Source: a virus. Taken from it: a stretch of DNA of 50,338 bases. Shown here piece by piece: positions 4,209-10,500 of this stretch. The number at the start of each line of letters is the position of its first letter. The first letter of the stretch is position 1. The notes under the pieces were generated by a model that ran no database searches, was not told where the DNA came from, and worked only from the letters and a program-made list of their open reading frames with translations. Location: positions 1 to 50,338 of IMG/VR virus record IMGVR_UViG_2209111020_000005. One strand, 5' to 3'. The position numbers and the translations under genes were made by a program.

Positions 4209-4414
4209 GGGCTGCCAGGCGGGCTGTCCGTTATCACTAATTCGCGCGTCTCAACCCCTATTAAAATTTTATCTCCTTGATCTATTGGCGCCGACTGCAT
4301 AATATACTGCGCCGCTTGATCAAAATCTGGAATATCCGCATATTCAATAGGTTTGTATCCGGCCAGCTTAGCTGAGTTTAGCTGTAAAATTCCGTTTTGG
4401 ATAATACCGTACAT
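4205..4414 (-). CDS. Small tail-region protein of unknown function
   Basis: The 69-residue protein begins MYGIIQNGILQLNS and contains 'GYKPIEYADIPDFDQ' and 'KILIGVETREL'. Similar short acidic proteins are common just after tail-fibre genes of Lactobacillales and Bacillales phages; their function is not known. The ATG follows AAAGGTGGTGAGCG and lies inside the 3' end of the reverse transcriptase gene (47-bp overlap), so it is co-expressed with the DGR. It lacks the basic, helix-bundle look of an Avd protein. Confidence 0.65.
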   Translation of the reverse strand: MYGIIQNGILQLNSAKLAGYKPIEYADIPDFDQAAQYIMQSAPIDQGDKILIGVETRELVITDSPPGSP

Positions 4415-5438
4415 TAACGCTCACCACCTTTCTTGCTATTTTAATTCGTGCCACCGGCTGGACGATGCAATGATAAAACTGATAGCTGTCCGTGCGTTTC
4501 AGCCATCCCCAGTGCGAGATCACCGCACAGGCGTCAGAATAATTGAGATAGCCTTTTTTCTGTATCTTGCTGACACGCCGCCGGATTCGCAATGAGTTAC
4601 GTTTTCGGAGCGTTGACTTATCCCGGTAAAAGCGGATGCCGAGAAAATCAATATCCCGACAGTCCAGGCGGAACACCTGCCAGTTACTCTTTATCTGCAG
4701 CTTAATGCCGGTGAGATACTCAGAGACTGCCTGCTGCGTCCGATGAAGTTTTTTCTTATTCGAACAAAGCATCACAAGGTCATCAACATATCGAACATAA
4801 TACTTAACCCCTAGTTGCTCCTTAATAAAATGATCGAGATCCTGCAAGAAAAAATTAGCGAACCACTGGCTGGTATAAAATCCAATTGGTTGGCCTTTGT
4901 TCTGGTCGATAATTTGATCAATAAGCCAGAGACAATCAGAATCTTTAATTAACTGACGGAACCGCTGTTTTAGTAGATCATTGTCAATTGACGGATAAAA
5001 TTTATGGATATCCATTTTTAGACAATATTTCGTATTTCGTCGGTCATTGTCTATCCACTTACGCAGCGATTTCTGCGCGTAACTTGTCCCTCGTTCGGGG
5101 ATGCTTCCGCAGCTGTACTCATACATGCCATGCATAATCATCGGCTCGAGTTGCAGCATAAGCGCCCAGTGGATGATTTGATCCGGATAAAAGTTCGGTT
5201 TATAAATCGTCCGCTCCTTTCCACTTGTGCCATCGTTGATAACCCTGATCTGCGGGGTGCTCGGTTGATACGTCTTAGCTTTAAGCATCTGCTGTAACTT
5301 GCCTGCGTAGCTGTCCGCGTTGTCTAATACTTTTTTAACCCGTTTCTGATTCCGCTTACCAAGCGATGCTTTCTGCATTGCGAGTTTAATATTCTCAGTG
5401 TCACAAACCTTTTCGTATATAAAGCCGTATCGTTTCAC
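4368..5438 (-). CDS. Reverse transcriptase of a diversity-generating retroelement
   Basis: The 356-residue RT copies the TR RNA into adenine-mutagenised cDNA that replaces VR. Motifs in order: KERTIYKPNFYPDQIIHW (about 75-92), DIHKFYPSID (about 143-152, first catalytic Asp), GQPIGFYTSQWFANFFL (about 182-198), which has the G-x3-SQ motif 4 typical of DGR RTs, and the YVDD catalytic box in YVRYVDDLVML (about 216-226). It has neither the maturase nor the endonuclease domains of group II intron proteins, and is the usual length for a DGR RT. The ATG follows AAGGTGATTCGCC. It lies about 120 bp after TR on the same strand, in the order target-VR-TR-RT seen in characterised elements. No Avd gene is recognisable next to it. 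Confidence 0.93.
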   Translation of the reverse strand: MKRYGFIYEKVCDTENIKLAMQKASLGKRNQKRVKKVLDNADSYAGKLQQMLKAKTYQPSTPQIRVINDGTSGKERTIYKPNFYPDQIIHWALMLQLEPMIMHGMYEYSCGSIPERGTSYAQKSLRKWIDNDRRNTKYCLKMDIHKFYPSIDNDLLKQRFRQLIKDSDCLWLIDQIIDQNKGQPIGFYTSQWFANFFLQDLDHFIKEQLGVKYYVRYVDDLVMLCSNKKKLHRTQQAVSEYLTGIKLQIKSNWQVFRLDCRDIDFLGIRFYRDKSTLRKRNSLRIRRRVSKIQKKGYLNYSDACAVISHWGWLKRTDSYQFYHCIVQPVARIKIARKVVSVNVRYYPKRNFTAKLS

Positions 5439-5560
5439 GGCGAATCACCTTCTTATTAGCCTCAAGGACTTTCGACAATACTACTTGTCCTTGCTCTTTA
5501 CGGCGAATTTTCACCAAGCGGTGCGGATGATAGGGTGCAATATATCTTTAAATTTCCTAA
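5439..5560 (-). other. DGR spacer between TR and RT
   Basis: This stretch of about 120 nt has no gene apart from the RT ribosome binding site. In the Bordetella phage DGR a similar-length spacer after TR is needed for cDNA priming; the position and size here suggest the same role, but I infer this from layout only. Confidence 0.45.
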
Positions 5561-5671
5561 TAAGAGTCTGCCTGCCGATATTGACATTCGAGTTCCACGA
5601 AGGATTGTTCAGATTCCAGTTAGACAATCCAGCGTTCAAACCATTGTTCCAGCCCGCGCCAACGCGGGCAA
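5561..5671 (-). repeat. DGR template repeat (TR)
   Basis: This 111-bp stretch is near-identical to the 3' end of the fibre gene (5761-5872), offset by exactly 200 bp at one end and 201 bp at the other. On the coding strand it is loaded with AAC/AAT codons (an Asn-rich virtual peptide GWNNGLNAGLSNWNLNN), which is typical of TRs because AAY codons diversify without creating stops. Over 5567-5671 all 18 substitutions relative to VR fall on TR adenines (18 of 25 adenines changed; about 80 other bases unchanged; counted by hand). One extra mismatch, C in TR versus T in VR on the coding strand, lies at the 3' edge (5566). TR has no ribosome binding site and is not itself a gene. Confidence 0.93.
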
Positions 5672-5719: not shown

Positions 5720-5741
5720 TTGGGGGACTTACGTCCCCCAA
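5720..5741 (-). other. DNA hairpin/cruciform downstream of VR
   Basis: TTGGGGGAC (5720-5728), a 4-nt loop (5729-5732) and GTCCCCCAA (5733-5741) make a perfect 9-bp GC-rich stem. It lies about 20-40 bp past the 3' end of VR on the coding strand and before TR. The Bordetella phage DGR needs a hairpin of nearly the same shape (8-bp stem, 4-nt loop) just after VR for efficient retrohoming. No T tract follows on the minus strand, so a terminator is less likely. Confidence 0.75.
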
Positions 5742-5759
5742 ACCCCCTAAAGAGCCTTC

Positions 5760-7502
5760 CTAAGAAGCCGCCCGCCGATAGCGACATACGAGTACCACGA
5801 AGGACCGGTTCAGAAGCCAGTCAGACAAGCCAGCGCCCAAACCATCGAACCAGCCCGCGCCAACGCGGGCAATAAACTGCCCAGAGGGATTTTGCCAGTG
5901 ATAGTCAGAGTAATAACTAGAATCGTTTCCGCCCAAGACAGTCGGCAACTGAACATAAGGATGATCTGGGTCAAAGCCCATGTCTTTAACAAATCCATTA
6001 GCATGTACATTTTCATAGCCGATGGATTCATAAGGACTGGCAAAAACGTTACTTGCATAGTCATCCGCATTTTTAGCAACCCATGACCTTCCATTGTTGA
6101 TATTTAATCCGTCAACAAACGTCCATGTACTACCAAACGGATTTTCAATTCCGCGATAGACGCATGGGTATTTCCCGTCGTTCGCTACTATTCCGCCGCT
6201 TTCTGCAAGGATATTTTTGCTAAATCCTGTTTTCCATCCGCCGTTGTAAACCACTTTCCCTGCCGATATATCTACCGGATCGCCATCAAAAATAAGGGCT
6301 TTGTTACTTGCGTCATAGTCCTCAATTGCCGTGATCGACCGGTCATAAAAAACCTGAACCCCGTTTACATCGTTTCCGATATTTATCGGCTGGCCTACTC
6401 GATAATTCTGCGCCCGACTACTTTCAATAATCGCCCGATTTGTCTGTGTTTCGCCAACTGTGATTACGTCACCATTATCTCGCCTGCCGCCCGTCCAACC
6501 AGCCAAAACCGACTGTGAGTTAAGCGTCGCAAATTCGGTATGGAAAAGTGTTGCTAAGATGTCATGTGCATGCAGGTCGTACTGCTGATAACCTTTTAAC
6601 CCGTTTATATTATTCGCGCGGGAATAATTTCGAAAATCAATGATATTTTTTTGCACAAGCGGGTACTTATCCGGTTTTGACTCCAGCTTGCCATCGGCGG
6701 ACAGCGAAGCTTTATGTTTCGCAAAATCAAAATAGTCAAGTTCCCTGCCATTTTCAAAATCCCAAAAACACCAGGGCAGATAAAAACCCGCATGCTTTGT
6801 CTCTGATACTTGTTCCTGCAAAAAGCCAGGTCCACTCTGCCGCCTGATATAAAATTTAGGTATCCGCCTAAACACGTTGCCATAACTATCCTTAGCGTCC
6901 TCAATCTCGCCCCAGATCGGTAGGTGGTCAAAATCGTTTTTCACCAGCTGACCATCTATGCCGACAGCCGACTGTAAGCCTACAGCAGAGTCCGTCCGCG
7001 TCATGGTCGGGCTTGCTGTTTTATCCCAGTAAGCTCCATAGATGGCCTCTTTATAGGTTAGTAGGTGGATACTATTAATCTTGTCGATCAGGTCGCTGAC
7101 ATACGCTGCAGACTCTGTATTGATGGTCGTTGCATCGCTTACTACCTTAAACGGAATATTAGGCGTAGACATGCGGGACGTTTTGCCAAACGTATCTGTT
7201 TTTTCAAACACAAAATAGGCTGTTCTGATATTGCCGAGCGTGGCAAAGGACTCCTTTACCAGCGTACACTCTACTTTCCCAGCAGCAGCATCTGTAATCG
7301 TCGCGCCTTGCCTGATATAGTACCAAGCTGGCGTGACGCACTCAAACAGGGGCGTGATCCCGGTCAGATCAACAGGAACGCCGTCCTGCATGATCTGAGC
7401 GCTAAATGTATTAGTATCAAAATCGTTTCTGCGGACCTCAATACGCGGAATATTGGCCCGACCGTTAAGGTCGAGCTTCATGCTGAAAACTTTATTAGCC
7501 AA
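5760..7502 (-). CDS. Receptor-binding tail fibre, DGR target (BppU-like N-terminus, lectin-fold C-terminus)
   Basis: I chose TTG 7502 (580 aa): GGAGG lies 9 nt upstream, while ATG 7481 is 28 nt away and the longer frame to 7583 overlaps the previous gene. The N-terminus (DLNGRANIPRIEVRRNDFDT onward, about 10-110) resembles the BppU/baseplate N-terminal domain that fixes the fibre to the tail tip. The last ~250 residues resemble the formylglycine-enzyme/C-type-lectin fold used by DGR targets, ending in the VR (IARVGAGWFDGLGAGLSDW). The protein would bind the host surface, and the DGR would vary its binding face. One extra base in VR shifts the last ~15 residues to SFVVLVCRYRRAAS; without it the frame reads PSWYSYVAIGGRLLRKAL and stops at 5747-5749, matching the conserved end of the fold. 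Confidence 0.85.
   Translation of the reverse strand: MANKVFSMKLDLNGRANIPRIEVRRNDFDTNTFSAQIMQDGVPVDLTGITPLFECVTPAWYYIRQGATITDAAAGKVECTLVKESFATLGNIRTAYFVFEKTDTFGKTSRMSTPNIPFKVVSDATTINTESAAYVSDLIDKINSIHLLTYKEAIYGAYWDKTASPTMTRTDSAVGLQSAVGIDGQLVKNDFDHLPIWGEIEDAKDSYGNVFRRIPKFYIRRQSGPGFLQEQVSETKHAGFYLPWCFWDFENGRELDYFDFAKHKASLSADGKLESKPDKYPLVQKNIIDFRNYSRANNINGLKGYQQYDLHAHDILATLFHTEFATLNSQSVLAGWTGGRRDNGDVITVGETQTNRAIIESSRAQNYRVGQPINIGNDVNGVQVFYDRSITAIEDYDASNKALIFDGDPVDISAGKVVYNGGWKTGFSKNILAESGGIVANDGKYPCVYRGIENPFGSTWTFVDGLNINNGRSWVAKNADDYASNVFASPYESIGYENVHANGFVKDMGFDPDHPYVQLPTVLGGNDSSYYSDYHWQNPSGQFIARVGAGWFDGLGAGLSDWLLNRSFVVLVCRYRRAAS
5761..5872 (-). repeat. DGR variable repeat (VR)
   Basis: This is the 3' end of the fibre gene and the partner of TR at 5561-5671. 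The 5' 23 bases on the coding strand are identical to TR; divergence is confined to template adenines, for example AAC to TTC, AAT to GAT, AAC to GGC and AAT to CTT. It is 112 bp against 111 in TR because of one inserted base near 5805-5808, where the coding strand reads AACCGGTCC and TR reads AACAATCC. The GC-rich block next to the stop codon is where an IMH (initiation of mutagenic homing) site would be expected. Confidence 0.93.
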
Positions 7503-7521
7503 TATTAAACACCTCCGATAC

Positions 7522-10500
7522 TTATGGCAATGAATCGATATTAACTTTCTTTTGGGCGGTTGCTGTATTTCCAATAAATCCATTTAGCGTGCCTGTACTT
7601 GTATCGATATAGCCCGCCGTGCCACGTGTCACATTGTTATTAAACGTCTGAATAGTCGGATCCGTGCCGGTAATCGAACAAGCGTAACCGCAATTATAAT
7701 CCGAAATAATATTATCGCTAAAAGTAATGCTTTTACATGTTGATTCGATAGCGCATGCCGCGTCTAGAGCAGGCGTCGGAGATTGAATGTTTGTAATGAT
7801 ATTTCTGGCCACAATCGTCTTTTCTACAAATCTCAACCACAGCGCGCCGAGCGATGATCCGTCTATAATATTTTCGGATATGATATTGTGACTCGTTAAA
7901 CCCGTATGTCTAATATCGGAAGGCGATTCCCACATAAAAATCGCTGTGGATTTTGACCATAAAAACTTATTATGTGTAATCGTGCCGTGCGACGAATAAC
8001 GAATGTCAAGAGAGTTTCTGTCCCACCGGAAAGCGTTCCCGCTGATATCATAACTTTCGCAGTATCTGATAATAAGAGAGATAGCCTGTGCATCTGATTC
8101 GCCACCGAACTGATTACCGCACACTCTAAAATTATAATTTTTATAGGCTACGTCGTTATAGGATATCCCTTGGATAGATACGGTGCCGTTGAAATACCCA
8201 AAACCATCAAAATAGTTGTCTAAAATACTGAAATTGTTTTGAAGATTAGGATCCCCGGGACCATAACCCGTACCATCAAATGTTGCAGCATAGGGATTGG
8301 AAAAAATATTAATGGCATAATTTTTTACACCAGAAAGAAACTTGTTATTTTTAATCACAAAATTAGAGCACCCGCGCAAATGGATAAAACCGCCCTGATA
8401 GTCATTATCACCCGGAGCATCGACGCCGTGAACATGTAGATTATTTTCAATATAAATATTGTAAAAAGGGCGATCACGTGTCTCCGCATGATTACCGATA
8501 ATATTGGGCGCCGGGTATTTTATGGATCCGTCGCTGTTATAGACTGGGTAGAATTCGCAGTTTTTGACCGTCACGTCATGGGTCGGTATGTTGTCCAGAC
8601 TGGCCGGATCGTTTGCCTGCGGATTGCCGGGCGATGGAGAATCGAGCTGAATGACCTCAGTAAAATAGCGGCCAGTTTGCGGTTTAAACCCATAAAATGA
8701 GCAATGGTCAACTACTACATGATCGCAGCCCATCAGGTCAAAGACATGTGCGTTAAACATGCATTGCTCAAAAATAACATTCCGACACGTGAGATGACTG
8801 ACGTGCGTAAAGGCCATTTTAACATCGACATTGTTGTCCAGGTTGCCCTTAAACCGGCCGCCCTCGATTAATACATCATAACCGCGATTTCCGTAACCAG
8901 TCTCCCCCTGACCGTTCATGTCGATGATATAACTAGCTGGCGCAAGAATAGTTGTTCCCGATGACAGTTTCAAGTGCATCCGGGAGCGTCCGATTAGCGT
9001 AGTAATCTTGTAAGTTCCATCCGGAATAAACGTTTCAAGGCCCTTTGCCGCGTTGTCATCAATGGCGGCCTGAATAGCCACCGTATCGTCCGTTACTCCA
9101 TCACCCTTTGCGCCATAATCGCGCGGCGTTGCTGCCACGTCTTGCGCGAAAAACGGAAGATAGGCATAAGTGCCCCGGCGTTTCCCATCAACCGGAACGC
9201 GCAGCGTCTCAAACATCGGCTTATAGGTCCCACTTCCGTTCGGTTCGTCAAAGGACAGAAAGTCCGCGCTGTTCAGATTAAGCGAGAGGCCCTTCTGCCG
9301 GTTGATGCCCGAATACAGCGGGGAAAGATTTCCCATGTCGACATTGTCTTTATAAAATTGTAGGTTTCCCTCACGTAAAATGGTTTTGTCCGTTCCATCC
9401 GCCGATCCCGTTATTTCAATTCTATCTGAATATACTTTAATATCTGTTCCGATAATACTGGCGTCATGAAATGTAATAGTGCCATCTTGAGCAATGCTCA
9501 TTTTCTCAACGCCGTTCTTTATCGCACGAACGCCGTTTCCGTCGATCCATACATCAAAGTCGCTTTTTTTCATGTGGAAACCGTTTCCATCAAGCCAGAT
9601 GTCCATACCGTTGCTACTGATGTGGATGGACGCACCCTCGATATCGCCGCCGCTGATCGACGCGCCAAAAGTATTGACGGCACCACTTTTATCCACCTGA
9701 AAAACTTTAGCGCCACTTTTAGTCATAACAAGACCGTCACTGTTCAAACGGGCATCAAAGCCTGTCAATTCGTTAAAGACATGAAAGTCCACGCCCTCGA
9801 CAAGGATGCCACGCAAGACGCCGGCAGTAATAAAGTCAGCAACAATCTCACCGTCGGATGTCATGGCAAGACCATAGGGTCCGTTGACACCCGTTGACGA
9901 ATAGCCAAGCCCGCTGAGGTTCCACCGCCATACTTTATGCGCTGTATCTACATCTTCTGTATCCATGATTAAAAATTCCTGTGGCTTGTCCTTTGGCCTG
10001 AAAACAACATGTCCGCCTAAATTTCCAGTAATCAAGTCTGTAGCATGGTCAATAGCTTCTTGTAAAAACGTTTTCTGATCGTCTACTTTTTGGCCAATTT
10101 CTTTATTGTTGTCAGCAATGCTTTTTGTAATGTCATATCGGGCATCACCGATATCAACAACCGGACTTTCGGCAGGATTAAACGGGTTATCCGTTTGAGC
10201 ACTGATACGGACAGATAGATCCAGATCCATGCCGTCCTTGTCATAGATGCACCAGATAAAATCTCCAACCTCATATTGATGCACCGGCAATCCGTTTTTA
10301 TAGAGCTCTTCCAATTCAACACGTGCGCTATAAGAGCCTTCGTTAAGCTGAGATTCTGCGTACGCCGTCAGAGAGTCTTCAACCGTGAAGCGTTCATCCT
10401 GCACAGAGGTTTTATAGATTCTCTCAAATTTGTCCCAGTTCGGCGATCTGACGGTTACTGAAACGATCGGGTTTCCATCATCATCATTTTTTCCTTTTGC

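Follow-up and report, generated by a model that had tools for sequence, protein, structure and literature searches.

Which signal leads a diversity-generating retroelement (DGR) to its target in phages other than Bordetella phage BPP-1? Little is known about DGR target finding beyond this model. The virus contig studied here, whose complete stretch of 50,338 nucleotides is referred to as the window, raises the question by a GC-rich hairpin next to VR. An earlier interpretation of this DNA (the sequence-only reading) had suggested for the hairpin the same function as in the Bordetella phage and had seen in it support for an active element.

The DGR and its neighbourhood

The element is a DGR, because all 18 substitutions between TR and VR in the gapped alignment fall on TR adenines; gaps of 1 and 3 nt complete the differences. 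On the minus strand, a BppU_N baseplate gene ending in VR is followed by 15 nt, the hairpin, TR, the RT-18 RNA, and the reverse transcriptase. The components are:

5760-7583, minus strand: target gene, an open frame for a BppU_N baseplate protein (Pfam PF10651, E 1.1e-18); the upstream start is uncertain
5757-5872, minus strand: VR, the 3' end of the target gene, from the gapped alignment to TR
5720-5741, minus strand: hairpin, stem 5733-5741 with 5720-5728, loop GTAA 5729-5732; conserved in relatives
5554-5671, minus strand: TR (template repeat), from the TR/VR alignment; no hairpin after TR
5449-5523, minus strand: RT-18 RNA (Rfam RF03021, 67.9 bits, gathering threshold 41.3)
4368-5438, minus strand: reverse transcriptase with IGFYTSQ and YVDD (Pfam RVT_1, E 3.6e-17); 38 viral relatives

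The reverse transcriptase adjoining TR is of the DGR type, as indicated by the RVT_1 match, by relatives with TR/VR pairs, and by IGFYTSQ, which we take to be the motif marking such enzymes. Relatives of the enzyme occur in genomes of Salirhabdus, Alkalihalobacillus, and Levilactobacillus, in phage LBR48, and in Butyrivibrio phage Arawn (MN882550). The RT-18 RNA presumably forms the structured 3' portion of the template RNA, and its Rfam family may be a marker for template RNAs in this DGR clade. The accessory gene Avd is common in DGRs but not universal. A profile search with PF22296 did not find it in the window; the same holds for 11 of 13 records, the other two being BPP-1 and Vibrio phage 1F273_PE002, and among 29 relatives from the clade none exceeded the Avd cut-off.

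In the assembled window, VR is out of frame relative to the relatives. Between 5747 and 5808 (minus strand), VR is 1 nt longer than TR at one place and 3 nt shorter at another, and at their ends, where IMH and IMH* would be expected, VR and TR differ by a 3-nt gap. Via a shift inside VR, the target frame stops early at 5760; the target proteins of relatives end with ..GGRLLKKPL or KKAL, and their stop codon touches a purine run, named run1 below. The shift is either a real indel or an assembly error. That the element is active is plausible in view of the adenine-specific substitutions, but, with the frame of VR as assembled, no more than plausible.

The hairpin is linked to VR

The hairpin between VR and TR, with its perfect, GC-rich 9-bp stem and 4-nt loop, was confirmed in the sequence. 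It reads TTGGGGGAC TTAC GTCCCCCAA on the plus strand (5720-5741) and TTGGGGGAC-GTAA-GTCCCCCAA on the minus strand, which is the sense strand of the element. It was said to lie just after VR; the distance is 15 nt if counted from where the gapped TR/VR match ends and 19 nt if the ungapped match is used. No other perfect stem of at least 9 bp with a 4-nt loop exists in the 50338 bases, and the number expected by base composition is about 0.19 per window or 0.0002 per 60 nt. DNA folding of a 71-nt stretch containing the hairpin gave -14.4 kcal/mol, which corresponds to a z-score of -4.8 with respect to shuffled sequences.

For a comparison, relatives of the reverse transcriptase or of the target were gathered by scans of viral contigs and one scan of genomes. 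Of 332 loci, 269 contained a TR/VR pair, and the other 63 were dropped; further drops concerned loci without a readable reverse transcriptase frame (16 of 269), loci in which a lenient score detected no G-arm hairpin (34 of 253), and near-identical regions. GC-rich perfect hairpins with loops of 3-6 nt were counted in 187 distinct regions of at least 90 nt. Such a hairpin was present after VR in 116 of the 187 regions (missing by this rule in 71), compared with 3 of 187 after TR and 57 of 3740 after random sites. A chance hairpin was rejected on the basis of uniqueness in the window and enrichment after VR in the relatives.

The quartiles of the distance between hairpin and VR are 20 and 35 nt; the distance to TR ranges from -3426 to 375 nt. 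One locus (L184) possesses a single TR and two VRs (7006 and 8853), which lie 3-5 kb beyond TR and the reverse transcriptase, and the same hairpin element follows both; in another locus (L311), one of two VRs lacks it. Among 27 relatives sharing the window's geometry, the window itself excluded, 6 of 9 stem pairs were altered on both sides, and the stem covariation score was 0.314, compared to 0.152 after shuffling and at most 0.119 after sliding. The compensatory changes, which the sequence-only reading had suggested looking for, therefore exist, in a hairpin kept beside VR and not TR. Based on this placement, the distant VRs of L184, and the stem covariation, the comparative data indicate that the hairpin belongs to VR and is under selection; its role as a target-site mark is well supported by the same kind of data.

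The G-rich arm is the 5' arm in 108 of the 116 hairpins, with the opposite polarity in 4 and 4 undecided cases. The loops (3-6 nt) vary freely in the clade, and a GRNA loop occurs once among the 116. Compared with near relatives, the deposited genome of phage LBR48 (GU967410) appears to be missing the end of VR and the hairpin's G-arm; the respective stretch (500-560 of locus L061) contains undetermined bases. TR and VR of the window also contain a 7-bp hairpin in their 5' part, which was discarded as not conserved (10/182, shuffles 236/3640).

A purine run mirrors the G-arm of the hairpin

A feature absent from the sequence-only reading is a purine run located 3 nt upstream of the hairpin, which is the mirror image of its G-arm (AGGGGG-TTT-GGGGGA):

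5743-5748, minus strand: run1, AGGGGG, mirror of the G-arm GGGGGA (5739-5734); putative third strand, based on covariation on the reverse transcriptase tree and a class I triplex motif
5740-5742, minus strand: spacer TTT between run1 and G-arm; its second and third T additionally form pairs with AA at the base of the stem

Of 149 distinct loci, 98 have a run1 that ends at most 5 nt from the arm, and the spacer is exactly 3 nt long in 89 of these 98. The other 51 loci have no near run1, some of them through insertion of another hairpin. Sequences of run1 and arm are, for example, AGGGAGG/GGAGGGA (L003), AGAGGG/GGGAGA (L007 and L074), AGGGGAGG/GGAGGGGA (L104), and AAAGAGG/GGAGAAA (L105).

In an initial coarse test of 58 comparisons, the mirror image fitted better in 33 and the direct copy in 5, with 20 ties. 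A subsequent sister-pair test, which removes shared descent, was based on 42 independent pairs with differing arms from non-overlapping branches of the reverse transcriptase tree. Within the underlying set of 149 loci, which were selected for a G-rich 5' arm and contain some arms that are misplaced as judged by eye (L111, L187, L246, L282, L332), mirror matching gave 29 concordant and 2 discordant pairs with 11 ties (sign test, p 2e-7). The corresponding numbers of concordant pairs, discordant pairs, and ties were 17, 9, and 16 for direct matching, 4, 9, and 29 for complement matching, 11, 9, and 22 for reverse complement matching, and 13, 7, and 22 for mirror matching downstream of the hairpin. 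In a head-to-head comparison, the mirror was better in 26 pairs, the direct copy in 4, and 12 were equal. With permuted arms (60 runs), the difference between concordant and discordant pairs did not exceed 12, as opposed to the observed value of 27. The A at position 6 of run1 can derive from the stop codon touching it; with the first five bases only, which leaves out most stop-codon effects, the values were 20, 0, and 8 for the mirror and 15, 1, and 12 for direct matching.

Two scans of all viral contigs for any purine run, made without regard to mirror symmetry, found an exact mirror in 13 of 13 DGR-associated hits and in 11 of 126 others; as the 13 hits stem from few lineages and were all already in the set, this is a check of specificity and adds no new cases. 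The rule is broken by several loci (L043, L091, L111, L166, L264, L322, L332), and many loci with a plain GGGGG are uninformative. Taken across relatives, the comparisons show that run1 mirrors the G-arm and covaries with it. A direct repeat that would let the C-arm slip onto run1 was rejected, as the direct copy fits worse than the mirror.

Some loci deviate in their architecture. A second tandem element (GGGAGG-TTC-GGAGGG, loop, CCCTCC) directly follows the first in L104, L122, L208, and L209. In L110, L147, L177, L189, and others, run1 is followed by TGAAT, a separate hairpin, and then the G-arm; a simple pattern finds 22 such cases, in which run1 is still often a mirror (AAAGGG with GGGGAAA). 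A mini-hairpin of the type CCx..x'GG before run1 was set aside as weak (34/81, compared to 26 by shuffling, p 0.02).

A putative intrastrand triplex

Watson-Crick pairing gives rise to inverted repeats, slippage or copying to direct repeats, and protein dimers to one or the other. An antiparallel purine third strand requires a mirror image next to a complementary C-arm. Because the mirror symmetry adjoins such a C-arm, we propose an intrastrand purine-motif triplex, which would be the simplest structure needing both features: run1 would fold back and lie antiparallel on the G-arm of the hairpin, forming G.GC and A.AT triads. Consistent with such triads, G occupies the third position above 403 of 416 G-C pairs, and A does so above 46 of 53 A-T pairs. 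At position 6, however, C mirrors C in 14 of 18 cases, which gives no purine triad. Moreover, the last base of the spacer pairs with the 3' flank in 83 of 98 loci and the last two in 64 of 98; this pairing would leave a turn of 0-2 nt in most cases, so that a full outer stem and a full triplex can hardly coexist.

The rules for class I triplexes from Holder et al. (PMC4666352) were re-implemented, allowing the second loop to reach 8 nt. The motif was found after VR in 52 of 187 regions, after TR in none of 187, and at 1 of 3740 random sites. When the bases upstream were shuffled and the hairpin was kept, it appeared in 239 of 5800 sequences, compared to 48 of 116 real ones. The window contains AGGGGG-ttt-GGGGGA-cgtaag-TCCCCC, i.e. 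6 triads without mismatch, with segments of at least 6, A.AT and G.GC triads, and short loops; some relatives (L154, L190) reach 9 or 10 triads. The bacterial PIT/TM motifs are likewise intrastrand triplexes, having reverse-Hoogsteen, purine, and pyrimidine segments on one strand and a 3-nt turn between the purine segments (PMC4666352). The 3-nt spacer of the relatives equals in length the TTA/CCG second loop of an E. coli triplex that was verified by NMR (Holder et al. 2015, PMC4666352). In contrast to the class I motif of the window, the E. coli TM belongs to class II, with the pyrimidine segment first, and the passages of Holder et al. (PMC4666352) dealing with it link it to genome instability and not to a retroelement.

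The mirror covariation is strong evidence, and a triplex would be its most likely cause. That this Avd-less phage DGR clade has its target recognised as a foldback DNA triplex, with a purine third strand on the hairpin, has in our estimate even chances. A search of the open-access literature found no paper joining DGR and triplex: of two papers containing both words, the one on the hankyphage uses "triplex" as a PCR term, and the other, a group II intron review, was set aside, judged by its title.

Comparison with BPP-1 and alternative explanations

In BPP-1, a hairpin or cruciform is required whose GRNA loop matters and whose stem is important by structure but not by sequence (Guo et al. 2011, PMC3240598). 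Hairpins of this type have a GC-rich stem of 7-10 bp and a 4-nt loop and are located on the sense strand, within 4-34 bp downstream of VR (PMC3240598). The hairpin of the window, with 9 bp, a 4-nt loop, high GC content, and a position 15-19 nt after VR on the sense strand, falls within this description. Hence, it could be a plain hairpin or cruciform of the BPP-1 type, with run1 being a gene-end leftover without a role. Place, stem, and loop length agree with the data of Guo et al. (PMC3240598), the stem covaries, and the stop codon overlaps the first bases of run1 in many relatives. We nevertheless consider this explanation unlikely, given the single GRNA loop among 116 and the mirror covariation of run1 and arm, which persists with the first five bases.

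BPP-1 and its relatives follow the GRNA rule, from which the loop GTAA departs; the clade preserves stem sequence and polarity and leaves the loop free, whereas in BPP-1 the stem sequence is free; Avd, present in BPP-1, was not found in the window or its clade; and the purine run before the hairpin, missing in BPP-1, is present here as the mirror run. Of the proposed functional identity with the Bordetella hairpin, place, stem, loop length, GC content, VR-linked conservation, and compensatory changes stand, and loop, kept stem sequence, Avd, and mirror run do not fit. The hairpin is thus real and functional-looking, and its class was named rightly; the close Bordetella match was less well founded. 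What the window carries appears to be a clade-specific hairpin variant with a third strand. Nanoarchaeal DGR hairpins (PMC4372165) are likewise a clade-specific variant of the VR hairpin, but have GRA 3-nt loops inside the target gene, and the passages describing them mention no mirror run.

A simple link between GRNA loop and Avd was rejected. Among 94 Avd-positive loci, 63 were without TR/VR in the stretch examined; the 31 distinct loci included 24 with a hairpin and 10 with a GRNA loop, all of the latter from BPP-1, the Vibrio phage, and the Bacillota set. In the Avd-positive Bacillota DGRs L465-L475, repeated AATCTG-like motifs lie between VR and the GRNA-loop hairpin; Avd-positive loci of the cyanobacterial phylum of L047 have CCCTTTT-like repeats in their place.

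The two G runs could alternatively form a G-quadruplex or G-hairpin, as antiparallel G strands also predict a mirror. GGGGG-TTT-GGGGG would suit this arrangement, mirrored A would face A, and triplex and quadruplex can compete (Holder et al., PMC4666352); yet there are two G runs only, and the C-arm stays complementary, A-T changes included, which is needless for a quadruplex, making this option improbable. An intrinsic transcription terminator between target gene and TR has a very small probability. A scan labels the hairpin as terminator-like, and TTTT within 12 nt follows 23 of 116 hairpins, compared to 406 of 9350 random 12-mers, so that some hairpins may also terminate transcription; the window and 93 of 116 hairpins, however, have no T run, and run1, the mirror rule, and the link to VR would be left without a reason. 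Equally remote is an element acting as RNA within the template transcript or the target mRNA: it sits between VR and the structured RT-18 RNA and would share a transcript with both, but the hairpin follows VR and not TR (116 versus 3 of 187), also where VR is kilobases from TR, and the purine-motif triplex is, to our knowledge, a DNA fold which RNA third strands do not join.

We favour a triplex-bearing hairpin, acting as a DNA element. With good confidence, the comparative analysis argues for a cis-acting mark of the DGR target site, which in the Avd-less clade would be half of a composite of hairpin and third-strand element. This role is derived from the conservation found here and the published tests with BPP-1 (PMC3240598). 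A DNA structure just downstream of VR would indicate the 3' boundary of the target to the retrohoming machinery. Speculatively, extrusion of hairpin and third strand from one strand might leave the other strand unpaired beside the VR end, and this might be where the cDNA must be joined or primed.

Implications

Separate parts of one strand that covary as mirror images are a rare kind of evidence and point to three-stranded DNA. If the triplex reading is true, phages would possess a conserved DNA triplex with a defined job, which would give intrastrand triplexes a biological role, and DGR targets would be marked in two ways, by this element or by the GRNA-loop hairpin. The Bordetella loop rule would then be unusable for finding target sites in this large phage clade, and the element could serve to redirect DGR targeting to other genes in the absence of Avd.
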